Assembly (NCBI GenBank): GCA_021163225.1
Contig: JAGGXE010000009.1
Span: 1-38,051 of the forward strand
Source of the DNA: Candidatus Micrarchaeota archaeon
GTDB lineage: Archaea > Micrarchaeota > Micrarchaeia > Anstonellales > JAGGXE01
Direction of reading: 5' to 3'
Length of the DNA stretch: 38,051 bases
Both the position numbers and the translations under genes were made by a program. Positions 1 through 32,061 of the stretch are shown one piece after another; position 1 is the first letter of the stretch; each line of letters starts with the position of its first letter. Under the pieces are notes generated by a model, which saw only the letters and a program-made list of their open reading frames with translations, was not told the DNA's origin and searched no databases.

Positions 1-1
1 A

Positions 2-1165: not shown

Positions 1166-1199
1166 TAATCTCTTAGAGCTTCCAACTATTCCTAACAAT

Positions 1200-1232: not shown

Positions 1233-1257
1233 CGGACAATTCCGATAAAATCACGTT

Positions 1258-2553
1258 TTAAGAATTTTGCAATTCTTTGATTAGTTCTTTTAGGTTGTCG
1301 TAACCGATGATTTTAAACTCCTTTTGAATGAGCCCACTCAGCCGCTTATATTCCAGTTTAGTTTTTTCTATCTCGTCTTGTGGGTAATTTATAACGAGAA
1401 AAACCCCATCAAATTTTACTTTCCTTTTTTTCTCCCAATTTTCTATGTTCTTTTCAATTTGTTTTAGGGAATCTTCCAGCTTCTTTCCAACTTCTGTAAG
1501 CTCTGTCTTTCTTTTTACGCACTTTATCTCTATATAAAACTGTTTATTACCGTGTGTGACAATGAAATCTACCTCGTTAATCTCTCCTCTGGGTTTTTTG
1601 CTTTTTTCAGAGATACCTCTTACGTGTGGAATAAAAGAGATTTCGTGTTTTTTCAGCAAATATGCCACAATATATGGATAGAAACCTTCAGGATTCATTA
1701 TCCTTTTGGATATTTCAGGAATAAATGTGAAAAATCTTATCTTTTTTAATTGTTTGTTGCAGATCGGACATTTGGGGTTTGATAGGCTATCAAATCTTCC
1801 ATAGTGAGGCAACACTACAAAATGAAATGGAGGAGATTTGTAATCATGGTTCTTGTAATTGTCACATAAATACACAGTTAAAACAGGAAAAACAGTGTCA
1901 GTTTTTACCAGCGACTCTATTTCGTCTGCGGTTAGGTCATGGTTTTTCTGAACATTTTTTATTATTGAAATAGAAGCATAGGGAAGGATGTATGCCATGG
2001 TAAAAAAATCTAAGCTTGAAGAATAAACTAATTCTTTTAGTTCTTTGGTAATTTGCTTCCACATTTTATCAGTTTCTTTAATATTCTTACGTAACTCTTC
2101 AATTGTAGTTCTATACGTTTCTTCCTCCAGAACTTTTTTATATGGTAACTTTTTGAGTCTTGCTATTGTTTCGTCTGAAAGTGAAGATAACAAAGTCTTT
2201 ATAAAAGCCATAAAGATCCGATTAGATAATCCCGAGATAGGAAATAAAAGTGCTTCTAACTTCTGAATCTGAGTAGTATAATAACGATCTAACAAATTGA
2301 GCGTTTTTTCACTAATATTTTCCCCAATAAAGAGCATAGGTCTATTTTCAAATCCTTTTATGTAAAATGTGGATTTATGGGAAGAGAATACCCTTAAAAA
2401 TTTCTCAGTATTAGTTATCTCTTCCATAAAATATTTTATTTCTTCTTTTCTGGACAACTCATCAAGAAAGATAAAAATATCATCGTCTTCATCAGCATTT
2501 TCTTCAATATCATTTCCATCTTCAGTTCTCAGCTTAATTTTAGGCTTTGACAT
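1258..2553 (-). CDS. Zinc-finger PD-(D/E)XK nuclease-like protein
   Basis: This 431-residue protein starts with a very acidic segment (residues 11-25), continues with a long helical region, then a CPIC motif (C262, C265), and ends in a probable PD-(D/E)XK nuclease domain. In that domain D329 ('EVDF') is followed 13 residues later by E342 and K344 ('IEIK'), the classic metal-binding and catalytic core, with predicted beta-strands around it and a closing helix rich in Lys and Glu. Such domains occur in restriction endonucleases and other DNA-cleaving effectors. The start overlaps the end of the upstream winged-helix gene by 14 bp, so the two are probably co-translated. The nuclease fold is well supported by the motif; the target and the biological role are not known. 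Confidence 0.6.
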   Translation of the reverse strand: MSKPKIKLRTEDGNDIEENADEDDDIFIFLDELSRKEEIKYFMEEITNTEKFLRVFSSHKSTFYIKGFENRPMLFIGENISEKTLNLLDRYYTTQIQKLEALLFPISGLSNRIFMAFIKTLLSSLSDETIARLKKLPYKKVLEEETYRTTIEELRKNIKETDKMWKQITKELKELVYSSSLDFFTMAYILPYASISIIKNVQKNHDLTADEIESLVKTDTVFPVLTVYLCDNYKNHDYKSPPFHFVVLPHYGRFDSLSNPKCPICNKQLKKIRFFTFIPEISKRIMNPEGFYPYIVAYLLKKHEISFIPHVRGISEKSKKPRGEINEVDFIVTHGNKQFYIEIKCVKRKTELTEVGKKLEDSLKQIEKNIENWEKKRKVKFDGVFLVINYPQDEIEKTKLEYKRLSGLIQKEFKIIGYDNLKELIKELQNS

Positions 2554-2938
2554 ACTTATATGCCTCCTTAACTAACTCCTGAGTTGATCTCTTATTTAAA
2601 TCTGATACTAACGCTCTAATAGAAGGTTCTTCTTCCAGAGGATGTTCTTCTATAAATGCTTTTCCTTTTTCTGTTAGTTCATATTCATAGACGCTAACAA
2701 AGAAATCAACTTCTCTTCGTGTTTCTTTTATCATACCCATAAGTTTCAGCCTATCAATAGTATTTTGTAGCTCCGAAGAATAAGGTCCATAATGATACTT
2801 CACAAAAATAAATGGGATATCTAACATATATTTCATCTTTGCTAAGAACATCATTTTTTGAAATTTTTTCCTACCTAAAATTGGCCCGAATTTCAAGAAC
2901 GTTAGGATTATTTTTTCCTTTTTTCCTATATCTAACAT
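2540..2938 (-). CDS. Winged-helix protein resembling Panacea/YwgA-type regulators
   Basis: A 132-residue protein. Its N-terminal half has the pattern 'KKFQKMMFLAKMKYML...FVKYHYGPYSSELQNTIDRL', which matches the general layout of YwgA/DUF4065 (Panacea/SocA-like) proteins: a K-x-Q-K-hydrophobic helix, an aromatic-GPYS turn, and a helix leading to 'LxxxGxI'. A winged-helix-like C-terminus ('YELTEKGKAFIEEHP') follows. Panacea-domain proteins are known as antitoxins or regulators that neutralise diverse toxic partners. It lies directly upstream of, and overlaps, the PD-(D/E)XK gene on the same strand, the arrangement expected of an antitoxin-effector or regulator-effector pair. Family assignment is by pattern only. 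It could instead be an ordinary winged-helix transcription factor. Confidence 0.5.
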   Translation of the reverse strand: MLDIGKKEKIILTFLKFGPILGRKKFQKMMFLAKMKYMLDIPFIFVKYHYGPYSSELQNTIDRLKLMGMIKETRREVDFFVSVYEYELTEKGKAFIEEHPLEEEPSIRALVSDLNKRSTQELVKEAYKYVKA

Positions 2939-3098
2939 AATGTAATATCAGACCAACAATTTTTATAAGGTTTCGCTTTTCTATTTTCCCCTTTTGAACT
3001 TTTCCACATTAGTTTATAATATACGTTATACTTAGAAGTATGCTTTTTTCTCTTTTTCTTCCTTATCTTTATTACTATCTTCGCACCTCACACCTATT

Positions 3099-3239
3099 CT
3101 ATCCGTTCTCTTCCCCAGGATCGCCCTCTTCCTCCATCGCCTTCTTTATACTCAGCAAAATCTCTTCCGTTGTTAAGGGAGTTGGTCTTCCTTCTTTGTA
3201 AATTTTCCATCTGTTCTGAGGTTGGATTAATATCAGCAT
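3099..3239 (-). CDS. Small hypothetical protein, 46 residues
   Basis: A short ORF begins with ATG at 3239 and ends with TAG at 3099. The product starts MLILIQPQNRWKIY, has a central 'EGRPTPLTTEEIL' segment, and ends in a charged amphipathic helix rich in Glu and Gly. The composition is protein-like rather than random. A TATA-like GTTTATAA (read on the plus strand, 3258-3265) lies 19-26 bp upstream of the ATG, compatible with a leaderless transcript. I do not recognise the family. Its size and charge would fit a small antitoxin or an accessory peptide of the neighbouring nuclease unit, but that is speculation. Confidence 0.4.
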   Translation of the reverse strand: MLILIQPQNRWKIYKEGRPTPLTTEEILLSIKKAMEEEGDPGEENG

Positions 3240-3432
3240 TTATGGGAATATGCAAATGTTTATAATCAATAATAGAAAATGAATTAAAAGATTAGTTGGT
3301 GTAATAATGTTAAATGGTTTTTAGTAAATTTGTATGCTCATATTATGATGAAGAAGTATGATGATCCGAGGGAAGAGATAGAGGAGAAAAGAAGGTTGCT
3401 GTGATGATCAAAAATTGATATGTGAGAAACCC

Positions 3433-3441
3433 TTATAAATA
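3433..3441 (+). promoter_or_regulatory. TATA box of methyltransferase operon
   Basis: TTATAAATA lies about 35 bp before a 14-codon leader ORF (ATG at 3472) and 76 bp before the methyltransferase start. It is a good archaeal TATA element; transcription would start near 3463. Confidence 0.5.
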
Positions 3442-3471
3442 CATCTATAGAAATAGCAACACGGTGGGTTG

Positions 3472-3516
3472 ATGAGAATCATAAATATTGCGCGTTCTAT
3501 TGCTGGCAAACCATGA
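3472..3516 (+). CDS. Possible 14-residue leader peptide
   Basis: ATG at 3472 is preceded by a GGTGG Shine-Dalgarno-like sequence (3463-3467). It opens a 14-codon frame (MRIINIARSIAGKP) whose TGA stop overlaps the ATGATGG start of the methyltransferase. The overlap would allow translational coupling. It could be a regulatory leader, the remnant of a controller gene, or chance. Confidence 0.3.
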   Translation: MRIINIARSIAGKP

Positions 3517-4553
3517 TGGAAGATGTAGGTGAAAAAATGGAAGAAAATAATGTAGGTATAAATACGTCAAATGTAATAAAAAGAAAAAAAACATCAAGTT
3601 ATACAATCCCCGGATCTGATTTAGCTTATATTGAAATGGAGGAAGTTACATTAAAAGACTATGAAGAATATTCCAATGCTTATAAGTATGTGATTATTGA
3701 AGACACAAAGCTTGAAATAGGCAAAGAATGGAAAGTTAAGGAGTACCAACCAAAAGACTTTGAGCTTGAGGCTACTACAGTCTGGAGTTTTCCTAATAGA
3801 GGAAAGTGGGCAACACATTACTTAAATGCAAAATATAGAGGGAATTGGGCACCACAGGTAGCAAGAAATTTAATTCTAAGATACACAAAAGAAAAAGATA
3901 CTGTGTTAGATGCTTTTGTTGGCTCAGGAACCACGTTGATAGAAGCAAAGCTTTTACACCGAAATGGGATTGGTGTAGATATTAATAAAGACGCTATAAT
4001 GGTTACTCTTGATAGATTACGGTTCTCTTATAATACTTTAGAAAAGAAACCTAAAACATGGATAAGGACTTACGTAGGAGATGCAAGAAACCTTGATAAA
4101 ATTGAGGACGAAAGTGTTGATTTGATAGCTACTCATCCACCTTATGCAAATATCATCGGATATACAAAAAACTCAAATCATAAAAAAGAAGGAGATCTAT
4201 CCAAAGTTAGGAATGTTGAGGAATTTGCCAACGAAATGAGAAAGGTGGCTAAAGAGTTCTATAGAGTTCTGAGGCCTGGGAAATATTGCGCTATTTTGAT
4301 CGGGGATACAAGGAGACATAAACATCACGTCCCGATTTCTTTTAGAGTCATGCAATCATTTTTGGACGTTGGTTTTATTCTCAAAGAGAACATAATAAAA
4401 CTACAACACAACATGAAAGCAACACCCCTTTGGAGGAAAAAAAGTATTCAATACAACTTTTTACTGTTAGCACATGAACATTTATTTGTTTTTAGAAAGC
4501 CAGAAAAAGGAGAAAAAACTGAGAAATTTAAGGAAAGCATGAGGTGGTGGTAG
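3513..4553 (+). CDS. DNA N4-cytosine/N6-adenine methyltransferase
   Basis: A 346-residue S-adenosylmethionine-dependent DNA methyltransferase. The SAM-binding motif I 'DAFVGSGTT' is at about residues 133-141 and is preceded by the characteristic 'FPNRGKWATHYL...YRGNWAPQVARNLI' segment. The catalytic motif IV 'HPPYAN' is at 208-213 and is followed by a typical 'FYRVLRPGKYCAILIGDTR' region (about 250-270). With S/H-PPY in motif IV after motif I, it belongs to the N4/N6 class that modifies exocyclic amino groups of cytosine or adenine; the sequence alone does not say which. The last codons overlap the GTG start of the next gene, so the two are translationally coupled. It may be the modification half of a restriction-modification system in this island, or a solitary methylase. 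The recognition sequence is unknown. Confidence 0.88.
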   Translation: MMEDVGEKMEENNVGINTSNVIKRKKTSSYTIPGSDLAYIEMEEVTLKDYEEYSNAYKYVIIEDTKLEIGKEWKVKEYQPKDFELEATTVWSFPNRGKWATHYLNAKYRGNWAPQVARNLILRYTKEKDTVLDAFVGSGTTLIEAKLLHRNGIGVDINKDAIMVTLDRLRFSYNTLEKKPKTWIRTYVGDARNLDKIEDESVDLIATHPPYANIIGYTKNSNHKKEGDLSKVRNVEEFANEMRKVAKEFYRVLRPGKYCAILIGDTRRHKHHVPISFRVMQSFLDVGFILKENIIKLQHNMKATPLWRKKSIQYNFLLLAHEHLFVFRKPEKGEKTEKFKESMRWW

Positions 4554-5107
4554 TGGAAAGCTTACATGAGTTCATGTATGACAAAAGACTGAAGCTTAAA
4601 CCTATTAGCGTTATTAGACTCAACGATTCATATATTTTGGCTATCTATCCTGGAAGAAAAAGCGATGCCGATATTATAATAAAATATAGACAGAAACTCA
4701 AAAATGGGAAATGGTCTAATATAAGAACTCCTAAGCATATCCATTGGACCGTTGATTTATTAATAAAATCATACAGCAATCGAGAACTTACATCTAAATT
4801 TATTGATGAATTGATGAAAGTTTGGGAAAAGATCCAACCTATAAAAAGCAAAGAAGAAAGAGATAAATTAAGTTTAGAGCAACTATTAGAATATGATCAA
4901 GAAACTATCGAAAAGTTTAAAGAGCTAAGCAAATACGGGGAGTACAACATCAAATTTCTAATTTTGCTTGCACAGCTTCTTATGTTGCAGGAGAAAACAA
5001 ACTATCCTCACGGAAAAATATTTCAAACATTACTAAAGAAACTCAAACAAGGCGAAGATATATTTACAATATTGGCTACCGCAACATTGAGAAAATTAGG
5101 TAAATAA
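4544..5107 (+). CDS. Unrecognised protein coupled to the methyltransferase
   Basis: A 187-residue soluble protein starting at a GTG inside the end of the methyltransferase gene; several GTG codons in a row leave the exact start uncertain by up to 9 bp. It has an N-terminal beta-rich part with 'ADIIIKYRQ' and 'RTPKHIHWTVDLLIK', and a helical C-terminal half with 'GEYNIKFLILLAQLLMLQEKTNYP' and 'DIFTILATATL'. The conserved-looking His/Trp/Asp residues and the tight coupling suggest a partner of the methylase, such as a cognate restriction subunit or a specificity/accessory factor. I cannot place it in a named nuclease family and see no PD-(D/E)XK or HNH signature. Its AT-rich composition matches the rest of the island. 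Confidence 0.65.
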   Translation: MVVVESLHEFMYDKRLKLKPISVIRLNDSYILAIYPGRKSDADIIIKYRQKLKNGKWSNIRTPKHIHWTVDLLIKSYSNRELTSKFIDELMKVWEKIQPIKSKEERDKLSLEQLLEYDQETIEKFKELSKYGEYNIKFLILLAQLLMLQEKTNYPHGKIFQTLLKKLKQGEDIFTILATATLRKLGK

Positions 5108-5304
5108 TTCCTTGAGATGGATTTAAATGCAAACCTCTTATCTTTTCCCGATTTTCAAACTTTCTAAAGATGAAAGGGTGAACCTTCTACGAATGTATCC
5201 TGATATATCAGATTCTTTTATTGGATTCGGGGATTGTATTTTGGAAATTTCGGGAAGAATAACTCCATCTGTGCAGGTTCTTTACTTCGGGTTCTATTCT
5301 CTCA

Positions 5305-5369
5305 AGTTTTACTTTAATTTTGGCAGGGTGAAAATTAAACCTTACTTAAATTTTAGCAGGGTAAAACTT
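5305..5369. repeat. Double 33-bp repeat, left flank of ATPase gene
   Basis: Two head-to-tail units sharing TTACTTAAATTTTGGCAGGG-type sequence occur at 5305-5336 (diverged at its 5' end) and 5337-5369. Bases 5316-5349 are identical over 34 bp to 6598-6631 on the other side of the ATPase gene, in the same orientation. The repeat runs up to the stop codon of the ATPase gene (5369-5371). Confidence 0.8.
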
Positions 5370-6574
5370 CAAATATAATAGTAGGGTATCCCGTATATGG
5401 TGGTATTTTTAACCTTCTTCTCAAAAGTATCCTGGGAGAGAACGAGGGCGATCTCGGGTTGATACTTCTCTATAAAGCTTAAGAGGGACGGCGTTATCTT
5501 ACCGGTAATCTTTACCTCTACAGGGATAATACTACCGTCTTCCCTCCTCAGGATGAAATCAACCTCAGCCTTACTCTTAGTCCTCCAGTACAGAACCTCT
5601 CCGTACTTAATGAGTTGAGTCCATACACTATTCTCCAAGGTAGCACCTCCGTCCGGTCGTTCTTCTATACCAGAAAAGGTACCGATCAGTTGGTTTCTAA
5701 AACCCGAATCATAGAAGTACACCTTCTCCCTTTTGGTTAACTCGGTCAACTTATTCGTGGAGAAGGTAGGGATCGTCTTCAACACAAAGGACCTCTCCAA
5801 GATTGAAATATACTCCTGGGCGGTAGGGTAACTCACCCCTAAACTACTGTAGTCCAACAGGTTACCAGTTATGACTGCCAACCTCTTGACCACGTTCCAG
5901 AGTTTTTTCCCCTCTCTCAACGAGAAATACCTAATTATATCCTCCTCAATAGTTGTTGTTACTAAGGAACTGAGGAGTTCCCTATCCTTATTTATCACAA
6001 TCTCGGGATACCCTCCCCATATACAGTATAGGTCATACAGTTTTTCAAGGGATTCTGATTTCTCAGGAAGTTTCTCCTCACCCTCCAATAACCTTTCAAA
6101 CTTCTGGTGTCCCCTCTTGTAGATGAGGAAAGTATCCTTCCCCTCCCAACTCGTGACCTCACTAAACCTTAGAGGTAGTAAGTCAAATAGGTAGACCCGA
6201 CCGACCAGGTATCTCAACAGATTCATCTTTATGTCAAAGGCACCAGACCCTGTTAGTACTACTGGACCTTCTTCCAGTGTATCATAGATCAGTTTAAGGG
6301 CCTTTGCACCTTCTTCTCCCAAGTATTGTACCTCATCTAAGTATAGAGGGGTACCTCTCTCCTTGACGAATCCGATCGGATCCCTGAGAAAGGCCTCCCT
6401 TGCGATTGGATCTTCAAAGGTTACGTATTCTCCTCCCCGTATCTCTTTTATCCTTTTGAGAAGGGTTGTCTTTCCAGACCTCCTCGGACCACGGATCAGA
6501 ATAAACTTGCTTCCGAATACCCTCAAGACCTTCTCTTCCAACTCTCTCGGTAGGTACATGATCCTATTACTCAC
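5369..6574 (-). CDS. AAA_14 / DUF4143-type ATPase in repeat-flanked cassette
   Basis: A 401-residue member of the archaeal ATPase family with an N-terminal AAA domain and a C-terminal DUF4143-type domain. The Walker A 'GPRRSGKTTLLK' is at residues 29-40 and the Walker B 'LYLDEVQ' at about 93-100; a 'LTGSGAFDI' sensor-like segment follows. Near the C-terminus 'EVDFILRREDG...PVEVK' (about 345-365) is a PD-(D/E)XK-like motif typical of DUF4143. Family members occur in many near-identical copies in archaeal genomes and their cellular role is unclear. This gene is more GC-rich than the island to its left and is bracketed by the same tandem repeat on both sides, suggesting movement or amplification as a unit. 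The repeat also covers the promoter region, so autoregulation is another reading. Confidence 0.85.
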   Translation of the reverse strand: MSNRIMYLPRELEEKVLRVFGSKFILIRGPRRSGKTTLLKRIKEIRGGEYVTFEDPIAREAFLRDPIGFVKERGTPLYLDEVQYLGEEGAKALKLIYDTLEEGPVVLTGSGAFDIKMNLLRYLVGRVYLFDLLPLRFSEVTSWEGKDTFLIYKRGHQKFERLLEGEEKLPEKSESLEKLYDLYCIWGGYPEIVINKDRELLSSLVTTTIEEDIIRYFSLREGKKLWNVVKRLAVITGNLLDYSSLGVSYPTAQEYISILERSFVLKTIPTFSTNKLTELTKREKVYFYDSGFRNQLIGTFSGIEERPDGGATLENSVWTQLIKYGEVLYWRTKSKAEVDFILRREDGSIIPVEVKITGKITPSLLSFIEKYQPEIALVLSQDTFEKKVKNTTIYGIPYYYI

Positions 6575-6585
6575 GCTCTGTTTTT

Positions 6586-6651
6586 AAACCTTACTTAAAT
6601 TTTGGCAGGGTGAAAATTAAACCTTACTTAAGGTTTAGCAGGGTTTTAACT
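6586..6651. repeat. Double 33-bp repeat, right flank and promoter of ATPase gene
   Basis: Two tandem units, 6586-6618 and 6619-6651, share the ACCTTACTTAA(A/G)(T/G)TTT(G/A)GCAGGGT pattern. Bases 6598-6631 match 5316-5349 exactly. Because the ATPase gene is on the minus strand, this copy sits directly upstream of its start (6574) and includes AT-rich TTTAA motifs that could serve as the promoter. Confidence 0.8.
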
Positions 6652-6722
6652 AAACCCAAACATGATAACCTCGTTTGTTGTTAGGCATCTGTTGGGTATC
6701 GAGGGGTTTTAAGGTCCGGACA

Positions 6723-6992
6723 TCACATTCTCTTAAACCCGATCACCCACAACCCGTACTTCTCTATTTCTTCCTTACTCCAGTGATCCTGATCCTTTGT
6801 GTTGGTTACATAGGTGACCCTTAACCTCAACTCTCTTCCGGTATACTCCTTCTTCTCAGGATCCCATTCCTTGAGAACTAGGATATCATCCTCTTTTATA
6901 CCGAAATCGGCCAGTCTTATTTCAAAGGTCTTCTTCCCGCTCTTAATCAACTCAAAATACTTCGGCCATATCTTCTTTTCTATGATTGTCAT
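6723..6992 (-). CDS. ASCH-domain (DUF3850-like) protein
   Basis: An 89-residue protein covering a whole ASCH/PUA-like fold. Typical features are 'K.IWPKYFELIKSGKKTFEIRLADFGIKEDD' at the N-terminus, 'LKEWDP...YTGRELRLRV' in the middle and 'LWVIGFKR' at the end. ASCH domains bind RNA or modified nucleotides and are found near translation or defence genes. I chose ATG 6992 because a GGAG Shine-Dalgarno sequence lies 8 nt before it; an in-frame GTG at 7001 would add three residues (M-M-C). It is a single-gene unit between the ATPase cassette and a gene remnant. The precise substrate is unknown. Confidence 0.75.
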   Translation of the reverse strand: MTIIEKKIWPKYFELIKSGKKTFEIRLADFGIKEDDILVLKEWDPEKKEYTGRELRLRVTYVTNTKDQDHWSKEEIEKYGLWVIGFKRM

Positions 6993-7088
6993 GCACATCA
7001 CTCCTTCATGCTTTGTGTCGTATTTATGGTATAAACGTAAGATTTTTATATATGCTTTTATGTATTTAAACAGAGAGAACTTTTATAT

Positions 7089-7448
7089 CCGATAAAATGC
7101 ACTGCAACCAACGAATCTACGAACTCCAAAGCACTTCTATACATCAAGGGAGACAAGTATCACTTTGAGATAATTAATGCGACTGGAAAAGTAATAGAAA
7201 TTGTTGTTAAAGATAATAAAGGTTATCTGAGAAATTTGAACCCTCAACCAGGAATGGAAGACTGTGATTGGGTAGTAAATGACGGTCCATATATAAAGCA
7301 CGGCCCTTGGAAGTTGAGTCCGGTTGACATCCCGGACTCTCATTTCATTAAACAGTATCATTGTGTGAGAGACAATTTCGGTGATGAGATATTTGATACC
7401 CCAGGCAAATTGTGTAATAGCGATCAGGTAATGGAAAAAAGTGATTAA
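7089..7448 (+). pseudogene. 5'-truncated remnant of a secreted protein gene
   Basis: A reading frame without a normal start codon runs from a TAA at 7038-7040 to the TAA at 7446-7448. From about 7089 its translation looks like genuine protein: 'KALLYIKGDKYHFEIINATGK', then 'VIEIVVKDNKG', then 'PGMEDCDWVV'. The pattern recalls periplasmic/lipoprotein-type small beta proteins that bear a 'GDK...GKV...' core. No signal peptide or ATG precedes it; the first usable in-frame starts are internal (TTG at 7236). I read this as the C-terminal end of a gene whose 5' part was lost, at the right edge of the accessory region. It could still be a gene using an unusual start. Confidence 0.45.
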
Positions 7449-7478
7449 CTTTTGAGTGAAATTTTTAAGGGTAAGGTC

Positions 7479-7997
7479 TCAATCTCCCAGCACACGTATC
7501 TTTTTTAGTCTTTCTTTAATAATCCCTTCTACTTCCTCTGCCTCATCCTTTCCCAAACCTAGGAAGGATATCTCAGGTCTTCTGAGTCCGATCCCAGCGG
7601 TCTGTATGTTTACCCTGTAAATGCCAAAGATGATATCTACGAAGGTTTGCGCTACATCCACATTAGTTATTTTGTAGTAGGGTACGAATTTTTTCCTTCT
7701 GTAGAATATTCCACCCTGAAAGTTTACTCCTTCTTCATCAACCCAATACCTGTACGTTTTGAAGAGAGCTTTGAAGTATATTGTTATGATCAGTAGAGGC
7801 ACCACCAGGATAAGCACAGGTACTCCAACAATAAATGGTAGGAAAGACAATTCACGTAGAAAAACAAACGACATCAAAAACGGAGCCCAGAAAATTATTA
7901 TGAGCACTAAAAACGGTATTCCTACCAGTAACGTTTGAGCTATCCACAACTTTTCTGACGGTTTACCTTCCCACAGAACCTTACCCTTTTTTGTCAT
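7479..7997 (-). CDS. Membrane protein with bacterial-type PH (DUF304-like) domain
   Basis: A 172-residue protein. After a short cytoplasmic start ('VLWEGKPSEKLW') come two or three hydrophobic helices (about residues 18-75). A soluble C-terminal domain follows with 'YRYWVDEEGVNFQGGIFYRRKKFVPYYKITNVDV' and 'IYRVNIQTAG', which is the pattern of the bPH2 (YdbS/YdbT-like, DUF304) domain: 'Y.(I/V)..EGI....G.....+..IPY.KI..V......G...I'. These proteins are widespread small membrane proteins of unclear function. It is the last gene of a five-gene minus-strand run; the gene before it (8032-8478) also encodes a small membrane protein, 34 bp upstream. Confidence 0.75.
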   Translation of the reverse strand: MTKKGKVLWEGKPSEKLWIAQTLLVGIPFLVLIIIFWAPFLMSFVFLRELSFLPFIVGVPVLILVVPLLIITIYFKALFKTYRYWVDEEGVNFQGGIFYRRKKFVPYYKITNVDVAQTFVDIIFGIYRVNIQTAGIGLRRPEISFLGLGKDEAEEVEGIIKERLKKIRVLGD

Positions 7998-13443: not shown

Positions 13444-14511
13444 TTAGTTCCGTTTCCTACGCCTTAAGTATATGTCTAACACTACCTGTACGGTTGTGGG
13501 TGAGTACGGTCTTACTATCCGTCTGTCTATCTTAAGTATTGTAAACCCTCGGATCACCTTTTTCAAACTCTCTATCAATCCACTGAACGGATCGTCTATC
13601 GGTGCGAACGCGTACACATGAATCACTCCTTCGTCTTTGAGAGCTGTTAACATCTCAGGCACGTGTTCTATCGCGTTTTTCGGGAGCGGCATAACGATCC
13701 TGTCCGCCCAATCCTTGAACTCTTTTACTTTTTCTAACGCATCGCCTTCAACGACTTTAACATTACCGAGTCTGTTAAGTTTGACGTTTTCTTGGAAATA
13801 TTTAACGGCATGAGGATTGATCTCTATTCCGACAACGGTGACATCTTTGTTGTGCTTCGCAATAGTTATCGCAAAGGGTCCGTATCCGGCAAACGGTACC
13901 AACACATGTTCCCCGGGTCTGACCAAATTGCTGATTCTTTTTCTTTCGTAAGACAGACGTGTCGAATAATACATCTTCGAGATGTCCAACCTGAAAACAC
14001 ATCCGTTCTCCTTGTAGACCGTCTCTGTTTTAGGTTCTCCTGCGATTACTTCTACCTCTCTCACACGCCATCTACCGCTCATACCGCTTTTTTTCTTAAC
14101 TACTGTGCGCACGTTCTTATGTATCTTCATCAGTTCCTCCGCGATCTGGGGTCCGTAAGGTTCTGCTTCTTCGGGCAAAGATAACACTGCTATCGAACCC
14201 ACTATCTCGTAAGACGATATCGGCGGTATGCCTTTTTTAATAAGGATGTCTCTTAACCTACCTTCAGCCGTTTCTTTTCTTTCGAGCGACTTCTCCTCCA
14301 CATCCACATCTTCCGAAAGTCCCTTTTGTTCCAAGCTTTCCAATACCTTCTCTAAACCGTTTTTCCGTAACGTTTCGGATACTGCAAAATAGACATAATC
14401 CTTTCCTGTTCTCGGTTTATATCCATAATCTATATCCAACAGTTTTCTTATCTTCTCTGCCAGACCTTTCCGGATCTTATAACACAACACTTTTTCTTTC
14501 ATCCCCATCAT
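13444..14511 (-). CDS. trm5: tRNA (guanine37-N1)-methyltransferase, Trm5/Tyw2 family
   Basis: About 355 residues from ATG 14511; ATGs at 14508 and 14502 are alternatives. The frame stays open upstream but runs antisense through the RNase P RNA gene, so that extension is not coding. The N-terminal region and the linker 'EGRLRDILIKKGIPPISSYEIVGSIAVLSLPEE' match the D1/D2 parts of archaeal Trm5. The class I methyltransferase core has 'LVPFAGYGPFAITIAKH' (SAM motif I), 'VGIEINPHAVKYFQENVKLN' (motif II) and 'MPLPKNA' in place of the usual NLP motif. Members methylate N1 of G37 in tRNA, or act in wyosine synthesis (Tyw2). The gene is convergent with the roadblock lipoprotein gene, with a 24-bp gap, and divergent from the RNase P RNA gene. 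Confidence 0.9.
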   Translation of the reverse strand: MMGMKEKVLCYKIRKGLAEKIRKLLDIDYGYKPRTGKDYVYFAVSETLRKNGLEKVLESLEQKGLSEDVDVEEKSLERKETAEGRLRDILIKKGIPPISSYEIVGSIAVLSLPEEAEPYGPQIAEELMKIHKNVRTVVKKKSGMSGRWRVREVEVIAGEPKTETVYKENGCVFRLDISKMYYSTRLSYERKRISNLVRPGEHVLVPFAGYGPFAITIAKHNKDVTVVGIEINPHAVKYFQENVKLNRLGNVKVVEGDALEKVKEFKDWADRIVMPLPKNAIEHVPEMLTALKDEGVIHVYAFAPIDDPFSGLIESLKKVIRGFTILKIDRRIVRPYSPTTVQVVLDIYLRRRKRN

Positions 14512-14565
14512 CCTGTAGTTTTCAGTAGAACGATCTATGGCCGACCTTTTTTCAGTCCAGATAGA

Positions 14566-14573
14566 TTTATTAA
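14566..14573 (+). promoter_or_regulatory. TATA box of RNase P RNA gene
   Basis: TTTATTAA is centred 26.5 bp upstream of 14596, the first base of the P1 helix. The near-palindromic AT element may also serve the divergent Trm5-like gene. Confidence 0.6.
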
Positions 14574-14595
14574 GGAATTCAAATACTATAAAAAT

Positions 14596-14790
14596 GGAGC
14601 GGTAGGTGAGCAGCTTACCCCTGATACGGGAGGAAGTTCCGCCCATTACGCGTCTGCTGACGGGAGCAGAAACGACACCCCTTATTAAGGGGATGAAACG
14701 GCCCGTCGGCAGACGATCGTAATGCAAGCCGTACTGGCGCTTAGTAGAATGCTGCTTAAAAACAGAAGGCGGGCTACGGCCTACCGCTCC
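14596..14790 (+). ncRNA. rnpB: RNase P RNA, minimal archaeal form
   Basis: A 195-nt RNA closed by a perfect 11-bp P1 (14596-14606 with 14780-14790). P2 is UGAGCAGC with GCUGCUUA. CR-I 'GGAGGAAGUUCCGCCC' and CR-V 'ACAGAAGGCGGGCUAC' supply the P4 pseudoknot strands. The specificity part keeps a long helix (GCGUCUGCUGACGGG with CCCGUCGGCAGACG), the 'CAGAAACGACA' and 'AUGAAACGG' T-loop-type joining sequences, and a short CCCC-hairpin. P3 is reduced to about 3 bp, and the P15-P17 region to one small hairpin (GCC-GUACU-GGC). Archaeal RNase P RNAs are usually about 300 nt or more, so this is one of the small forms. It would process pre-tRNA 5' ends with protein subunits. The adjacent minus-strand gene is a tRNA modification enzyme. 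Confidence 0.9.
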
Positions 14791-14968
14791 GATCGCGTCT
14801 TGTAAAAAGTAGATATTACTTTGTTCTCTTCCACAGGTCCTATCCGATTGCATCTGATTTTGAGGTTGTTTAATTTGCATATTTATTATTCAAGATTTTC
14901 GAAGTTATTCAACGGCATAGGATATATTTCAACAACGTTTAAAAACATCTTTTTACAAAATTAAACAT

Positions 14969-15919
14969 ATGGTCAAACCAGGACACGCGCCATCAAACAC
15001 TATTAAACCTTCTAAAACTCACGAAACAAAAAAAGACCCGCTTCCCGACTTCATATCTCGGGAACGTGAGGTATTCTTCAACGAGTTTTTACACCTAAAA
15101 CCACTCACCTCACAACACCTGTTTAGGTTGGGGATGGAAGGAGTTGAGAGGAACAAGGCAAAGAACGGTCTGGACAGATTCTCAGGTGGATACCTTGCTA
15201 TATTAAAGAACATGCAACTGAAAAGCCATAACCTATTAAGCCACAGTGTCCGCGTAGCCTTGAACGTAGAGTACGCTGAGATAATGGTAGACGGTAACCC
15301 ATCAGGTGCCTTTTACTCAGGACTACTACATGATATCGGTAAGATAACCTGTACCAATCAAGCATGGTTTACAGACGAGAACCTTCCCATTGATGATAAG
15401 GCGTTCAAGGAGATTAAGGGACACGCCTTAAAGGGGTTTGAGATACTGAGTTCCCAAGACTACCTGTTTGTCGGTATGATCGCCGGGACCCATCACCTAC
15501 TCAGATCTGAAAACCCCTACGGTATAAACCCCATGGAAGCGGTCGTGAGGTTCTCCTCAATCCCCGAGATTACTCTAAGGATGAAGGATATACCTAACAT
15601 TGAATCCTTCATACAGGATGTTGTTGACGCCTCTGCTCTCATTGAGATCGCGGATGTTGTGGATGCTGCATTATCAAGGGAGAGACCTAAAGGTAGGGGT
15701 GATCTCTATCAACGACTGACCAAGATGATGCCTACCAGGATAAACCGGATATTAAGGATACTCTGTAGTCCCTGGAACATCTTATTCTACAGGTTTGATA
15801 GATGGTTGGAAGAAATAAAACATGTTCTCAACAACTCAGCACTTAGAGGATATGTAGAACGACAGTATCCTTGGATCCCGCACGATGTTACTTTTGCGGA
15901 AGATCATCTGAAACAATAA
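14969..15919 (+). CDS. HD-GYP-like phosphohydrolase
   Basis: A 316-residue soluble protein. A variable N-terminal ~85 residues is followed by an HD domain with the HD-GYP layout: 'LLSHSVRVA' (H92, R95), 'GLLHDIGK' (H121, D122, K125), 'KGHALKGFEIL' (H152), 'AGTHHLLRSENPYG' (H175, H176) and 'IEIADVVDAALSRERPKGRG' (D229). HD-GYP enzymes hydrolyse cyclic di-GMP or related cyclic dinucleotides, using the HHExxDGxGYP signature. Here HH and an NPYG ending are kept, but the E, D and first G positions differ, so substrate range is uncertain. Arg codons are mostly AGG/AGA, as in the ATPase gene at 5.4-6.6 kb. A TATA-like GTTTAAAAAC is centred about 28 bp before the ATG, so the transcript is probably leaderless. 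Confidence 0.75.
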   Translation: MVKPGHAPSNTIKPSKTHETKKDPLPDFISREREVFFNEFLHLKPLTSQHLFRLGMEGVERNKAKNGLDRFSGGYLAILKNMQLKSHNLLSHSVRVALNVEYAEIMVDGNPSGAFYSGLLHDIGKITCTNQAWFTDENLPIDDKAFKEIKGHALKGFEILSSQDYLFVGMIAGTHHLLRSENPYGINPMEAVVRFSSIPEITLRMKDIPNIESFIQDVVDASALIEIADVVDAALSRERPKGRGDLYQRLTKMMPTRINRILRILCSPWNILFYRFDRWLEEIKHVLNNSALRGYVERQYPWIPHDVTFAEDHLKQ

Positions 15920-21112: not shown

Positions 21113-21871
21113 TCAGGTTGATAAGATTTTGGTTTTCTTGTCATCTATTTTAACGATTATTCTCACATGACCGTGTAACAGGGAGTCCCGGATACGTTTA
21201 AGTAACAGTTCATCTATCTGGAACACACCTGCCGGATTAGTCATTTTTACGGTTATGTCTACTACCTTGTCCTTGCACCTACTCTTTGCTATTGAAACCT
21301 CTTCTATCGAGTCTGCAGATTCAGAATGAATACTGAACCTACCTCTTATGATAGGTATACGGGACCTGCCCTTTGTCATGTCCAACGCATCCCCTATTTT
21401 AACACAACTGGCTTCTAATGTGATTGCTTTAAGCGATTCGTGCGCAACGATACAATGCATAACCTCTGTTTTTATTCGTGTTTTCTTGGATGGGGAATAG
21501 TGCGGACTGAGGACACGGTCGATTATGTCTTCGGCCAATATCGCACTCCACGCCTCATGATTCGACCTGTGAACCGCATTCCCTATATCGTGAAGCAATG
21601 AGGATATGTAAACTATAACTTTACCGTCTTCCTCTGTCAATCCGGATTGTTTGCACCAGTTCCATCGATAATGTTCGGCATACGGAAGGGTTAATTCGTA
21701 AAGTTTCAATGCATGTTTAGCAACGATCCGTGCGTGCACCGGTCCGTGGTCATTGTATGCCAACCGTGTCATAGTCATTACGTTAGCCATTCTCCACAAT
21801 GTCTTGAGTTCTCTATCTTTTTCAATATCTGAACGTATTACATCGATCATTTTTTCCATACTATCACGCAT
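21113..21871 (-). CDS. Archaeal HD-domain phosphohydrolase
   Basis: About 252 residues from ATG 21871; a TTG at 21877 or a later ATG at 21859 are alternatives. HD motifs: 'YNDHGPVHARIVAKHALKLY' (His pairs), 'SSLLHDIGNAVHRSNHE' (HD), 'HCIVAHESL' (His), and 'CVKIGDALDMTKGR' (Asp). A C-terminal beta-rich part follows. This is the conserved archaeal HD family of uncharacterised metal-dependent phosphohydrolases. It begins within 16 bp of the ABCE1 stop on the same strand, so it is probably co-transcribed with the ribosome-recycling ATPase gene, hinting at a nucleotide- or RNA-related role. It is not of the HD-GYP type seen at 15 kb. Confidence 0.8.
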   Translation of the reverse strand: MRDSMEKMIDVIRSDIEKDRELKTLWRMANVMTMTRLAYNDHGPVHARIVAKHALKLYELTLPYAEHYRWNWCKQSGLTEEDGKVIVYISSLLHDIGNAVHRSNHEAWSAILAEDIIDRVLSPHYSPSKKTRIKTEVMHCIVAHESLKAITLEASCVKIGDALDMTKGRSRIPIIRGRFSIHSESADSIEEVSIAKSRCKDKVVDITVKMTNPAGVFQIDELLLKRIRDSLLHGHVRIIVKIDDKKTKILST

Positions 21872-21886
21872 CCCCAAATCAACTTG

Positions 21887-25699: not shown

Positions 25700-26758
25700 A
25701 TGAAGATTGTTAAAAGAATGCTCAAACATTCGCAGGGTAGAAGGTTCGAGGGTTCTGTTGTGTTAATCCCGGAAACCATCGATGATTTATGGTATCTTTA
25801 TCGTATTATAGAACCGGGCGACTTTGTGAAAGCCAAGACATACAGAACCTATAAACCTACCGAATCTTCCAAACAGGAACGCAAACCCGTTACCATTACT
25901 ATAGATGTAGAGAAAAAAGAATTTTCCGAATACCACAGGTCCCTTAGATTGACGGGACGTATTGTAGACGGTTACCCTTCTGAATTTGTTCAGATGGGTT
26001 CCTATCATACATTGGAACTTAAACCACATCTGACTGTGACGGTTTCTAAACGATGGTTAAATACTCATCTGTCTATGCTTGACGAAGCGTCGAAACGTTC
26101 TGAAGTGTCGGACATTTTAATAGTCGTGGTGGATGAAGAGAAGGCGTTGTTTGCTGAGGTTAAACCGCGTGGTGTTTCGTACGGTTCGGAACTGTATTCT
26201 GGATTGTCCAAACGCGAACCGCATTACGAAGAAAGGCTTCAAAAGTTCGTAACAGAAATCATAGATAAAGTGAAAGAGTTTGACGGACCGATCGTTATAG
26301 CGGGTCCGGGGTTTGTTAAAGATATGGTCAAGAACAAAATTATGGAAGAGTATCCAGAGCTCAGTGAAAGGGTGGTTTTTGAATCGTGTTCGCATGCGGA
26401 GAGGAACGGTATCGTAGAACTTATCAATAGAGGTGTTCTTGACAGGGTGATAGGTAAGACCACTCTTAAACGTGACCGTGAAGTTTTGGAGGAGTTCAAG
26501 ACACATCTCGGTAAAGAAACAGGGTACGTGGTTTACGGACTTGAGCCGGTCAGTAAAGCTCTCGAATATCATGCCTTGAAGAGGTTGGTTGTTCTCGATT
26601 CTCTATTGTCCGACGTTCGTATTCGCGAACTTATTGCAAAAGCCGAAGATAACCATGTAGAGGTTACGTTTGTTTCAAACGAATCCGATGTTGCGGAAGA
26701 ACTGAAAGGGTTCTCCGGGGTTATAGGTTTTCTTTATTATCCGCTGAGTCTAGATTGA
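25700..26758 (+). CDS. pelA: Pelota/Dom34 ribosome-rescue factor
   Basis: 352 residues with the three eRF1-related domains. The N-terminal Sm-like domain starts 'MKIVKRMLKHSQGRRFEGSVVLIPETIDDLWYLYRII' and includes 'GDFVKAKTYR'. The central domain has 'ILIVVVDEEKALFAEVKPRG' and 'GPIVIAGPGFVKDMVK'-type sequence, and lacks the GGQ of release factors. The C-terminal domain has 'VVYGLEPVSKALEYHALKRLVVLDSL'. Pelota binds stalled ribosomes with an aEF1A-like GTPase and, with ABCE1, releases them. Full length. The next gene starts 70 bp downstream behind its own TATA (AAATATAAATAT near 26800). Confidence 0.96.
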   Translation: MKIVKRMLKHSQGRRFEGSVVLIPETIDDLWYLYRIIEPGDFVKAKTYRTYKPTESSKQERKPVTITIDVEKKEFSEYHRSLRLTGRIVDGYPSEFVQMGSYHTLELKPHLTVTVSKRWLNTHLSMLDEASKRSEVSDILIVVVDEEKALFAEVKPRGVSYGSELYSGLSKREPHYEERLQKFVTEIIDKVKEFDGPIVIAGPGFVKDMVKNKIMEEYPELSERVVFESCSHAERNGIVELINRGVLDRVIGKTTLKRDREVLEEFKTHLGKETGYVVYGLEPVSKALEYHALKRLVVLDSLLSDVRIRELIAKAEDNHVEVTFVSNESDVAEELKGFSGVIGFLYYPLSLD

Positions 26759-26828: not shown

Positions 26829-28124
26829 ATGACGGTTCGTAGAAAAAGATTCTTCATCGAGACGTACGGTTGCGCTCTTAATCAAGCGGATTCTGCAATG
26901 ATGCGTAAACAATTGTTCGATTCTGGTTACATCGAAGTGGACAACCCTATTGATGCCGATGTCATCATTCTTAATACATGCACGGTTAAGCAGGCTACAG
27001 AATCAAAGATATTTGAAAACTTCAAACGTTACAGTAAGTTAAACAAACCGATCGTGATAGCGGGATGTTTGTACAGAAGACATGAGAGATTTCTGTCGAT
27101 AAATCCGAACATATCTATAATCTCTCCCGGTTCATTACGTATGATAGTTAGAGCGGTGGAATCATCCATCTCGGGAAGGAACTATTTTGATGTCCGACCA
27201 TTTGATAAACATCTTCCGATGAGGTTCACCGGCCCGGTTGTAACGATACCTATAAGCGAAGGATGCCTTGGTTCGTGCACGTTTTGCGAGACACGGTTAT
27301 CGAGAGGAAGACTTCGCAGTAAACGGCCGGAGTATCTCCGGAGTTTAGTTACTGAAGCGGTAGAAAACAAGGCGGTAGAAGTACGGCTTACCGCCCAAGA
27401 TACCGGGTGTTACGGTATCGACATCGGAACATCTCTTACCGACCTTCTTCACAGTCTTTTGGAGATAGAAGGGGATTTCATGATCCGTTTAGGGATGATC
27501 AATCCCGAGCACGCTTACCGTATGCTTGACGACCTTATCGAAATATATACTGATAAGAAGATGTTCAAGTTCCTTCACATACCTGTTCAATCTGGAAGCG
27601 ATAAGGTTCTTAAGGATATGAATAGACGGTATTCTGTTGATACGTTTGTTACGGTGGTCGAACGTTTCAGGCAGAAGTTTCCTGACATGACTATCTCTAC
27701 AGACATCATCATCGGTTATCCGACCGAGTCGGAAGAAGATTTTAGGAAAACCGTGGACCTCATTAAAAGGATGCGGTTCGAAATACTTAACATATCCAGG
27801 TTTACACCGCGCCCCGGAACCCCGGCAGCTAAACTAAAACCTCTGGATAATAAGGTTGTGAAACAACGTGTTGTAGAGGTCTCTAATCTTCACAGGGTAC
27901 AGAGTTTGAAACTGAACAAACAATTTATAAACAGAGAACTGAATATATTAATGACTGGAAGAAACGATACCAAAGGAACGTACATCGGTAGGACACGATG
28001 GTACAAGAAAGTAGCAGTACCGTACGACTGCATGGATATCGACCCGGTCGGACGATGGGTTAGAGTTAAAATAATGAGCGCTACGGAATCGGTGTTGATA
28101 GGCAAACCTGTTAAATTTGAATGA
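26829..28124 (+). CDS. tRNA t6A37 methylthiotransferase (e-MtaB type)
   Basis: 431 residues of the MiaB/MtaB radical-SAM methylthiotransferase family. The N-terminal UPF0004 domain supplies three cluster-ligating cysteines (C15 in 'TYGCALNQAD', C51 in 'NTCTVK', C80 in 'AGCL'). The radical-SAM CX3CX2C is C146, C150, C153 ('CLGSCTFC'). 'HIPVQSGSDKVLKDMNRRY' and 'DIIIGYPTESEEDF' are typical later motifs, and the C-terminal ~60 residues are a TRAM-like domain. Archaeal members convert t6A to ms2t6A at position 37 of ANN-decoding tRNAs. The last bases overlap the next gene's frame (ATGA). A leaderless start at 26829 fits the upstream TATA. Confidence 0.93.
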   Translation: MTVRRKRFFIETYGCALNQADSAMMRKQLFDSGYIEVDNPIDADVIILNTCTVKQATESKIFENFKRYSKLNKPIVIAGCLYRRHERFLSINPNISIISPGSLRMIVRAVESSISGRNYFDVRPFDKHLPMRFTGPVVTIPISEGCLGSCTFCETRLSRGRLRSKRPEYLRSLVTEAVENKAVEVRLTAQDTGCYGIDIGTSLTDLLHSLLEIEGDFMIRLGMINPEHAYRMLDDLIEIYTDKKMFKFLHIPVQSGSDKVLKDMNRRYSVDTFVTVVERFRQKFPDMTISTDIIIGYPTESEEDFRKTVDLIKRMRFEILNISRFTPRPGTPAAKLKPLDNKVVKQRVVEVSNLHRVQSLKLNKQFINRELNILMTGRNDTKGTYIGRTRWYKKVAVPYDCMDIDPVGRWVRVKIMSATESVLIGKPVKFE

Positions 28125-29521: not shown

Positions 29522-30079
29522 ATGGAAGAAGAACTGAAAGTCGGAGACTGTATGACCAAGGGTGTTATAGCAATACCTGCTTCACGTCCTGTTATAGATG
29601 CTGCTCGTGCGATGTCTCATGCTAAAGTGGGTAGTGTTATCGTACTGAAAAACAATAAGGCAGTGGGTATCGTGACGGAGCGTGATATTGTCCGAAAGGT
29701 AGTGGCTAGGAACAGAGACCCTTCCAAAGTACGGTTATCCAGTATCATGAGTAGTCCGTTACGTGTTGTGAAGGTCGATACGTCGATAGGCGAAGCGGCA
29801 CGGATCATGAGAAAATACGAAATAAAGAAGCTTCCCGTGGTTAACAATAAGGGGATGCTGGTCGGCGTGGTTACAGAAACGGACATCTTACGCGCCTATC
29901 CAGGGTTGGTCGACGTGCTTGTGGAATTGGCTGAGGTGTCCGCACCTCGGGGAAAAGAACCCGTGGTTGGAGTGTGTGAGCGTTGCGGCACGTATTCAAC
30001 AGATTTGAAACTCGTAGACGGGATGTTACTGTGTAGTGAATGCAGAAAGGAGCTTGAAGAAAGCGAAGAAGAGGTTTAA
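29522..30079 (+). CDS. CBS-pair protein with C-terminal zinc ribbon
   Basis: 185 residues. Two CBS motifs: 'KVGDCMTKGVIAIPASRPVIDAARAM...VGIVTERDIVRKVV' (about 5-62) and 'LSSIMSSPLRVVKVDTSIGEAARIMRKYEIKKLPVVN...VGVVTETDILRAYP' (about 72-130). A C-terminal 'CERCGTYSTDL...LLCSECRKEL' is a CxxC...CxxC ribbon. CBS pairs bind adenine nucleotides or SAM and serve as energy or ligand sensors; the ribbon may recruit nucleic acid or a partner. A TTTTTTAAAC element about 28 bp before the ATG suits a leaderless transcript. The downstream wHTH frame starts inside this gene, so the two may act together. Confidence 0.88.
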   Translation: MEEELKVGDCMTKGVIAIPASRPVIDAARAMSHAKVGSVIVLKNNKAVGIVTERDIVRKVVARNRDPSKVRLSSIMSSPLRVVKVDTSIGEAARIMRKYEIKKLPVVNNKGMLVGVVTETDILRAYPGLVDVLVELAEVSAPRGKEPVVGVCERCGTYSTDLKLVDGMLLCSECRKELEESEEEV

Positions 30080-30563
30080 TGTTCTTTTACGTTTTTTGTA
30101 TGGTGGTCGTGTGATCCCGGAATCAAAGCTTATCGAGCATGAGGTTACGGTTCGTCAATTGACACTTTCTAAGGAAGTGGTATTATCTAAGCGTGCTATG
30201 GTAAGATGGTTAGCATTGGCATTGGGTTTGATATCACCGAACGAATCCCGTCAATCCCTATTGGATGTTCTGGAAGTGTTGTTGGAGTTCCATTTCGACG
30301 GCGTACAACCCACTTCTGGAGATGTTATCGAAGCGGTGAACAAAAAATCATCTGCAATATCCCCCAAGACGGTACGTTATCATCTTACCCAGCTCACCAA
30401 AAAAGGGATCATACAGTGTAAAAACAGAAGGTATTCGTTCCCCAAGAGTGATTACCCTAACGATAGTTTGAGTAGTGCTGTTTACAGAGTCTACGAGAAG
30501 ACGTTGAAGGAATCTTTCTCCAGAATAGACAAGGTTCTTGAAATGTTTGAACGGAATAGATAA
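30036..30563 (+). CDS. Winged-helix protein, putative regulator
   Basis: Up to 175 residues. The start is uncertain: GTG 30036 overlaps the CBS gene by 44 bp, and GTG 30111 gives a shorter product. A C-terminal winged helix is visible: 'FHFDGVQPTSGDVIEAVNKKSSAISPKTVRYHLTQLTKKGIIQCKNRRYSF', with the 'SPKTVRYHLTQL' recognition helix and a 'GII...RRYSF' wing. The N-terminal half is helical with charged residues. It probably binds DNA; coupling to the CBS/zinc-ribbon gene suggests that a metabolite sensed by CBS could influence it. No operator is recognisable. Confidence 0.7.
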   Translation: MNAERSLKKAKKRFNVLLRFLYGGRVIPESKLIEHEVTVRQLTLSKEVVLSKRAMVRWLALALGLISPNESRQSLLDVLEVLLEFHFDGVQPTSGDVIEAVNKKSSAISPKTVRYHLTQLTKKGIIQCKNRRYSFPKSDYPNDSLSSAVYRVYEKTLKESFSRIDKVLEMFERNR

Positions 30564-30603: not shown

Positions 30604-31827
30604 TTACGGTGCTCCTGCACCGGTCTTGTGCTTGTTCCCTTTGTACAACCCGAACCTGAGCATCCCTTTCTCGTTGTTGGTTTTGCTCTCCAGTAGTACC
30701 ATGTTGACCAAACGTTCAAAGGTTTCCGCATCCTCGTACGCATCCTTCCATACGTCTACGCCTGCGGTTACCGTTATATGAAGTTTTGGCGGAATAACCT
30801 CTTCGGTGTTTTTCTCGTACACGCCCAAGGAACGTGTATCTACGGTAAAACACATCGATTCATGAATTCTCTTTGCAAAGGGAACGTACTCGTCTTCATC
30901 TACCCATGCTATCACAGCAAACTCGTCTCCACCGCGTCTGCATGCGTATGCATCGTACCCGCTAACCGCTTCCTTAAGACGCATCCCCATCAGTTTTAGA
31001 ACTCTATCTCCTACTTTATATCCGAACCTGTCGTTTATGCTTTTGAAGTTGTCGCCGTCTATCAACATGAGTGCGAGTTTTCTTCCGTTCTTTTCCGTCC
31101 TGGCACGTTCTACTTCTTTCTTCAATTGGTCTACGTAGAACCGCGAATTATACAATTTTGTCAATCCGTCGGTAATGGCGAGCTGCGACAGCGTTTTCAT
31201 CAAGTCTGCCTGAGCGAACAGTTTTTCCAGAATATCGCACATCTCATTAAACACTCCAACAATATAACCTTTGTCGTGACCGTTGATAAATTCTACAACC
31301 AATAACCCATTCACAGAGGATCTCAGGTTGAGTTTTCTTACCATCAACCGTTTAGGTTGAAGTATTTCTATCGTGGGATCTTCATCTCTAATCTCTTCAA
31401 GTTCTTTTTCATTCAATACTACCGGTCTTTTGCTTGTCAGGATTTTCTTAATAAATTCTTTATCCTTCGGTATCCTCTCTTCTTTTAGCAGTTTCCATTT
31501 TTCTTGTTCGATGTACGGTACAGATGCGATGCATTCGAACCCGTCCTCTTTTTCGACCCATAGTCTCACTTTTGTTGCATGACACAGTTTTTGTGTGAGT
31601 TCGAGAATGTTATCCAACTGTTCATACGGATTATTGTGTGTCAACAGTTTGTTTATCACTTCCAGGGTATCTATAACTGCCTTTTGATAACTTCTATCCT
31701 CTAAAGGTTCCCTGCTCGTCCATATGTGCAAACCTTTACCTACTTTTTTGACTGTCTTAACTATCTTGACAACGGTCGGAAAATTCTTTGCAAACCACCT
31801 ATTCTTTGAAGTTTTAACATGTGTCAT
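30604..31827 (-). CDS. GAF-GGDEF protein, putative diguanylate cyclase
   Basis: 407 residues, no signal peptide; ATG 31827 has an AGGTG ribosome site nearby. The N-terminal basic region (1-45) is followed by a GAF-like domain (about 60-210, 'VRLWVEKEDGFECIASVPYIEQEKW...'). The C-terminal GGDEF domain starts 'ITDGLTKLYNSRFY' (218-231), has 'LMLIDGDNFKSINDRFGYKVGD' (253-274) and an intact 'RRGGDEFAVIAW' (R297-W308, GGDEF at 299-303). GGDEF domains condense two GTP into cyclic di-GMP; all visible signature residues are kept. The RxxD inhibitory site that normally lies four residues before GGDEF is absent. GGDEF proteins are common in bacteria and rare in archaea. It is divergent from the giant surface-protein gene. 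Confidence 0.88.
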   Translation of the reverse strand: MTHVKTSKNRWFAKNFPTVVKIVKTVKKVGKGLHIWTSREPLEDRSYQKAVIDTLEVINKLLTHNNPYEQLDNILELTQKLCHATKVRLWVEKEDGFECIASVPYIEQEKWKLLKEERIPKDKEFIKKILTSKRPVVLNEKELEEIRDEDPTIEILQPKRLMVRKLNLRSSVNGLLVVEFINGHDKGYIVGVFNEMCDILEKLFAQADLMKTLSQLAITDGLTKLYNSRFYVDQLKKEVERARTEKNGRKLALMLIDGDNFKSINDRFGYKVGDRVLKLMGMRLKEAVSGYDAYACRRGGDEFAVIAWVDEDEYVPFAKRIHESMCFTVDTRSLGVYEKNTEEVIPPKLHITVTAGVDVWKDAYEDAETFERLVNMVLLESKTNNEKGMLRFGLYKGNKHKTGAGAP

Positions 31828-32061
31828 ATCATTACACCTTACTCTTTTTGATATTGTTATTAATTATGGATATACATGTATTTAAACCTTTTTGTCGAAT
31901 TCCGGAATTTCGTCAAGTTTCGTTTTATAAATCGGACGTTTAAGGGTTGACGAAGTTGTTGTTTTATTAATTTTTGTTTTGGGATGTAAATTTTATAAAC
32001 AAATATTTTTAAATATCGTTGTCAAGATTAAAACGTCATTTAGATCGGGGTGTTGGAACGA

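Follow-up and report, generated by a model that had tools for sequence, protein, structure and literature searches.

Genes of the cyclase type and of the phosphodiesterase type for cyclic di-GMP (c-di-GMP) coexist in one archaeal genome: the Candidatus Micrarchaeota archaeon analyzed here encodes two GGDEF-domain proteins and one HD-GYP-type protein, all of them in conserved places. Judged by sequence, this gene set is best read as a minimal archaeal c-di-GMP turnover module, whose receptor would belong to a family other than those searched. The occurrence of GGDEF in conserved core archaeal loci, together with a phosphodiesterase-type gene, makes archaeal c-di-GMP signaling testable and points to a new receptor.

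Archaea have been held to be almost devoid of c-di-GMP enzymes, with their rare GGDEF proteins regarded as possible contamination (PMC5847659, PMC10086821, PMC8646023). Galperin (2018) listed one archaeal GGDEF protein, along with a REC-inactivated GGDEF protein in Ca. Micrarchaeum, and asked whether bacterial-type regulators might be contaminants (PMC5847659); within the literature searched, this is the only source in which GGDEF is joined with Micrarchaea. Romling (2022) considered archaeal GGDEF proteins still in need of confirmation (PMC10086821), and a study of groundwater includes counts of diguanylate cyclases in its ultra-small populations (PMC9938205). Braun (2021) mentions >300 archaeal BLAST hits for GGDEF, many in Asgard and DPANN (PMC8646023), and here the domain was found in 127 of the 295 genomes covered from this phylum (over the cut-off in 109), including 43 of the 96 high-quality genomes; the remark that c-di-GMP signaling is only sparsely reported in archaea, made in the initial sequence-only reading of this DNA, is therefore due for revision. 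The Braun hits and the Ca. Micrarchaeum REC-GGDEF protein resemble the present case in placing GGDEF in DPANN or Micrarchaeota. However, those cases are doubted database mentions or inactivated proteins, whereas the gene described here appears intact, is syntenic in core archaeal loci, and has an HD-GYP partner. Synteny and the HD-GYP partner address the questioned authenticity of DPANN GGDEF hits. No archaeal GGDEF/HD-GYP pair is reported in the titles and abstracts from the literature search. Thus, the presence of GGDEF in Micrarchaeota was already known, while the HD-GYP partner and the synteny appear to be new within the literature searched.

The GGDEF protein and its sensor-like region

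The window (the whole stretch of 38,051 nucleotides that was analyzed) is a complete contig, C9, of a genome of 880 kb that is 96.7% complete and 0.15% contaminated. The GGDEF protein that it encodes, here called GGDEF1 (Table 1), carries a complete and apparently intact GGDEF domain. Residues 217-385 match the Pfam GGDEF profile (5.1e-26, 91.8 bits; cut-off 23.8), NCBIfam TIGR00254 is matched at 5e-28, and the AF2 model has pLDDT values >90 across most of the domain. The motifs TDGLTKLYN, LIDGDNFKSIND, and RRGGDEF are present, and GGDEF1 conserves every invariant column (16/16) when aligned with 27 bacterial relatives, so that the full diguanylate cyclase hallmarks recognized in the sequence-only reading are borne out. 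The same alignment shows conservation of the metal- and guanine-binding positions D257/D259, N265, and D274, with roles known from PleD. D274 occupies the place of PleD D344, where cGAMP-making Hypr enzymes have Ser; no Hypr-type Ser was found at this position in the GGDEF1 alignment. Deviations from the consensus are also seen, namely Y270 in place of the otherwise invariant H of GHxxGD, T354 for S, N375 for D, and N385 for G.

The RxxD inhibitory site, located five residues before GGDEF, is common in GGDEF enzymes but does not define them. It is carried by 21 of the 27 bacterial relatives and was not found in the aligned GGDEF1, which has G at −9 and A at −6 of GGDEF, confirming the absence of this feedback site that had been noted from the letters of the DNA.

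As for the GAF domain that had been assigned to the N-terminus, the order of helices and strands in the AF2 model is GAF-like for residues 45-218, though with pLDDT of only about 43-80, while the match to Pfam GAF falls below the cut-off (E=0.046, 14.7 bits; cut-off 22.4). A long helix connects this region to the GGDEF domain. The best Foldseek matches of the model are sensor-GGDEF enzymes such as 5llw (a bacteriophytochrome cyclase) and 4zmu (DcsBis), but whole-chain TM-scores are low, so the model does not fix how the domains are arranged. Bacterial GAF/phytochrome-GGDEF cyclases, including DcsBis (4zmu), the Idiomarina phytochrome cyclase (5llw), and PleD (1w25), are among the top matches by fold and by profile, and GGDEF1 shares with them the GGDEF fold, the catalytic residues, a putative N-terminal sensor, and the linker helix. 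In contrast to them, it is archaeal, has 17-26% identity to its bacterial relatives, lacks the RxxD site, and gives a weak GAF signal.

Table 1. Features of GGDEF1 and its surroundings (positions in the window)
Feature	Position	Strand	Basis or remark
Pelota, conserved GGDEF1 neighbor	25700..26758	(+)	Synteny
tRNA ms2t6A methylthiotransferase (MiaB-like-B)	26829..28124	(+)	Neighbor of GGDEF1 also in G004 and G077
Winged-helix protein	30036..30563	(+)	Convergent with the GGDEF gene here and in G004, G066, and G280
GAF-like-GGDEF protein (GGDEF1), 407 aa	30604..31827	(-)	ORF list, Pfam, synteny; ATG start
GGDEF (diguanylate cyclase) domain, residues 217-385	30673..31179	(-)	Pfam PF00990; AF2 pLDDT
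GGDEF signature, residues 299-303, without RxxD upstream	30919..30933	(-)	Alignment
GAF-like sensor region, about residues 66-185	31273..31632	(-)	Weak Pfam GAF; AF2 element order
TATA-like element TTTAAATA, ~52 nt upstream of GGDEF1 start	31879..31886	(-)	Sequence reading; putative own promoter
TATA-like element TTTAAATA, upstream of the divergent surface-protein gene	32008..32015	(+)	Sequence reading; putative separate promoter
Giant surface protein, ≥2000 aa, truncated by the contig end	32050..38051	(+)	Next to GGDEF1

Genomic setting of the two cyclase-type genes

The window contig carries the archaeal markers RNaseP_arch, archaeal DnaG (NF003108, 497 bits), and the pelota and RLI/ABCE1 equivalogs. 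In G004, a genome from another family of the order, a GGDEF1 homolog with 31% identity lies within the same gene block, which comprises genes for a CBS protein, DnaG, an AAA ATPase, the methylthiotransferase, the GGDEF protein, the convergent winged-helix protein, ABCE1, pelota, and a surface protein. A diverged copy adjoins the methylthiotransferase and pelota genes in G077, and in G066 and G280 the winged-helix gene is convergent with genes for GGDEF-domain proteins that lack the GAF region. The winged-helix protein was considered as a dedicated partner of GGDEF1 and rejected; since it is encoded by a core gene of the order, present in 73 of 84 genomes with or without GGDEF, it is a neighbor only. 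In the syntenic G077 copy the signature is broken and reads GIGDEF; the copies in family f7, from which the GAF region is absent, have GGDEV. Such altered-signature copies, syntenic or neighboring (L062:4059-5399; L199:5224-6321; L200:5340-6401), are possible inactive or binding-only forms.

A second GAF-like-GGDEF protein of the same genome (GGDEF2; 346 aa) has an intact RYGGDEF signature and is encoded on contig C22, adjoining gyrase genes and a Na+/H+ antiporter. Its reciprocal best match, with 33% identity over the full length, is G077_2 of genome G077, which likewise lies close to a gene that, going by its N-terminal sequence, is antiporter-like, on a contig, G077:C15, that carries archaeal-type EF-1alpha, SecD, and SecF. 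The tetranucleotide fit of C22 to the host is 0.738, with a mean of 0.668 for the genome's own contigs and 0.23-0.31 for bacterial controls. The gyrase and MEP genes had raised the suspicion that the GGDEF2 contigs are contaminants, and this was rejected based on the tetranucleotide fit and the archaeal EF-1alpha and SecD/F. G077:C15 (26 kb) carries bacterial-type MEP genes for IspD, IspG, Dxr, and IspH (L228:1377-6650 with L229:2772-4037); in the genome studied here, genes for AcnX and for UbiD-like and UbiX-like proteins are present instead, in keeping with the archaeal mevalonate route. That Micrarchaeota have acquired MEP genes has been reported previously (PMC12892359).

Contamination of the assembly by bacterial DNA, a caution voiced in earlier work (PMC5847659, PMC10086821), would agree with the bacterial type of the gyrase neighbors of GGDEF2 and of the MEP genes on G077:C15. 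It would also agree with a profile scan of named genomes, in which the GGDEF matches listed were nearly all bacterial, with one Micrarchaeota contig among them, and the best-scoring of those listed were bacterial. Against it stand the archaeal markers on the window contig, synteny in independent genomes, the tetranucleotide fit of C22, and the EF-1alpha, SecD, and SecF genes on G077:C15, leaving contamination extremely improbable and, for GGDEF1 and the HD-GYP gene, already close to refuted. Because the contig is archaeal and the block is conserved in another family, contamination cannot reasonably explain GGDEF1; the case that the sequence-only reading had made from dnaG, pelota, and ABCE1 is upheld and extended by the RNase P RNA gene and by synteny. 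A phylogeny of the GGDEF domain, proposed in that reading as a check, was built from 142 sequences, but with archaeal and bacterial sequences intermixed, 15 changes, and few supported branches, it cannot tell the origin of the domain or the direction of transfer.

That c-di-GMP might control the adjacent giant surface protein had also been suggested. The two genes are divergent and 222 bp apart, and a homologous surface protein (23% identity over 325 aa) is encoded inside the same block in G004; more loosely, Pus10 and a type IV prepilin peptidase gene come after a GGDEF gene in family f14. However, the G004 homolog is located ~8 kb from the GGDEF gene, beside pelota, and the GGDEF genes of G066, G280, and G077 have other neighbors. 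Since adjacency is not kept in any of these four genomes and each gene has its own TATA-like element (~120 bp apart), the surface-protein link is not supported, and with no receptor of the PilZ, EAL, or MshEN type in the genome, governance of this protein by the cyclase is highly unlikely. The GGDEF-Pus10-type IV prepilin peptidase order is kept in L145:605-3777 (‘Candidatus Micrarchaeota archaeon isolate SKW51’), L022, L026, and L027, from another family of the same class, where c-di-GMP may be connected with pili or surface filaments.

The phosphodiesterase-type partner and candidate receptors

Further GGDEF and HD-GYP proteins, which the sequence-only reading had proposed to look for elsewhere in the genome, were found in the form of GGDEF2 and a 253-aa HD-GYP-type protein on contig C24 (G000:C24:15309-16070; HD_5 match 4.8e-21). 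The gene for the latter has AcnX genes to one side and genes for proteasome alpha, SBDS, and the exosome to the other. Its PDB relatives are c-di-GMP or cGAMP phosphodiesterases, namely 4mcw (PmGH, 5e-15), 4r8z (PA4781, 1e-14), and 5z7c (V-cGAP3, 5e-10). The C24 protein carries the HD...HHExxDGxGYP signature with its metal ligands. It conserves HD, K, RHP, HHERWDG, GYP, and a later D, thus sharing the HD, HHE, GYP, and D residues of these enzymes; it differs from them in its 253-aa length without a recognized partner domain and in 11 inserted residues that separate HHERWDG from GYP. A similar insert is found in its orthologs in G077, G066, and G280, all of which, like the genome studied here, also have GGDEF proteins. 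G004 has a GGDEF gene without a match in the HD_5 profile search, and the pair is therefore not obligatory. Across the 295 genomes, HD_5 is over the cut-off in 24, this one included, and co-occurs with GGDEF with an odds ratio of 3.8 (p=0.003, uncorrected for kinship). Two HD-domain genes in the window (14969-15919 and 21113-21877) were rejected as HD-GYP phosphodiesterases, their matches being to the general HD model rather than to HD_5.

A search for PilZ and EAL proteins had likewise been proposed, and neither was found in this genome. PilZ was absent from the profile search results for all 295 genomes of the phylum, EAL was over the cut-off in 1/295, and MshEN was not found in this genome and occurred in 1/295. 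A search for c-di-GMP-I riboswitches gave no match, but its controls gave no match either. The only EAL domain over the cut-off belongs to a GGDEF-EAL protein of 863 aa encoded on the 6.4-kb contig G154:C42 (L003, L146), possibly a bacterial contaminant.

Proposed function and alternatives

The best explanation, with a probability of roughly two in three, is that GGDEF1 is a genuine diguanylate cyclase working in the bacterial-type mode, with GGDEF2 serving another input, the HD-GYP protein hydrolyzing the product, and a receptor of a type other than PilZ, EAL, or MshEN. In this scheme, whose activity, product, sensing mode, HD-GYP breakdown, and physiological output are all predicted, GGDEF1 would combine a cytosolic GAF-like sensor, a signaling helix, and a GGDEF domain free of the product-feedback site. 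The GAF-like domain would sense a ligand or redox state and set the dimer geometry of the GGDEF domain, and this dimer would condense two GTP into c-di-GMP; GGDEF2, of the same build, would respond to a different input, and the C24 protein would hydrolyze c-di-GMP. Of the original interpretation, an intact cyclase domain in an archaeal genome and a plausible c-di-GMP system remain, without the surface-protein link, and such a system is now more plausible than was then known, given that the same genome also encodes an HD-GYP-type phosphodiesterase and a second cyclase.

It is unlikely that GGDEF1 binds or converts GTP as a nucleotide sensor or as the source of another product, with c-di-GMP signaling absent. 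Such a role would be consistent with the lack of c-di-GMP receptors among the searched PilZ, EAL, and MshEN families, with the GGDEV (f7) and GIGDEF (G077) signatures of orthologs, and with several consensus deviations in the C-terminal half of GGDEF1; however, the catalytic, metal-, and guanine-binding positions of GGDEF1 are all conserved, the signature of GGDEF2 is intact, and an HD-GYP-type phosphodiesterase is present. A cyclase making cGAMP or a mixed cyclic dinucleotide, to be degraded by a V-cGAP3-related HD-GYP protein, is suggested by the match of the C24 protein to the 3′3′-cGAMP phosphodiesterase 5z7c. That match is weaker than those to the c-di-GMP enzymes 4mcw and 4r8z, and the guanine-specificity position of GGDEF1 holds D274 and not Ser, making this product very improbable.

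Returning to the cyclase reading, a bolder form of it is put forward tentatively, at somewhat less than even odds: a native Micrarchaeota c-di-GMP system consisting of two GAF-like-GGDEF cyclases, an insert-bearing HD-GYP protein, and an undescribed archaeal receptor class, kept vertically across the families of the order. If this were true, bacteria would not be the only prokaryotes with c-di-GMP signaling. Micrarchaea are believed to live in association with hosts. The title of a study on the cultivation of a Micrarchaeon stresses biofilm formation (Krause et al. 2022, as cited in PMC12892359), and a sessility signal would therefore be of interest in this group.

Other features of the window include a low-GC stretch at 1-4553 (0.32-0.33 vs about 0.43), with an outlying tetranucleotide signature in 1-7600 and an N6/N4 DNA methylase gene at 3513-4553; this stretch is likely an acquired restriction-modification island. 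In addition, the longest frame for the TRM5/TYW2 methyltransferase, at 13444-14880(-), is overlapped in its 5′ part, in antisense, by the archaeal RNase P RNA gene at 14598-14788(+); the true TRM5/TYW2 start codon is probably located further in than that of the longest frame.
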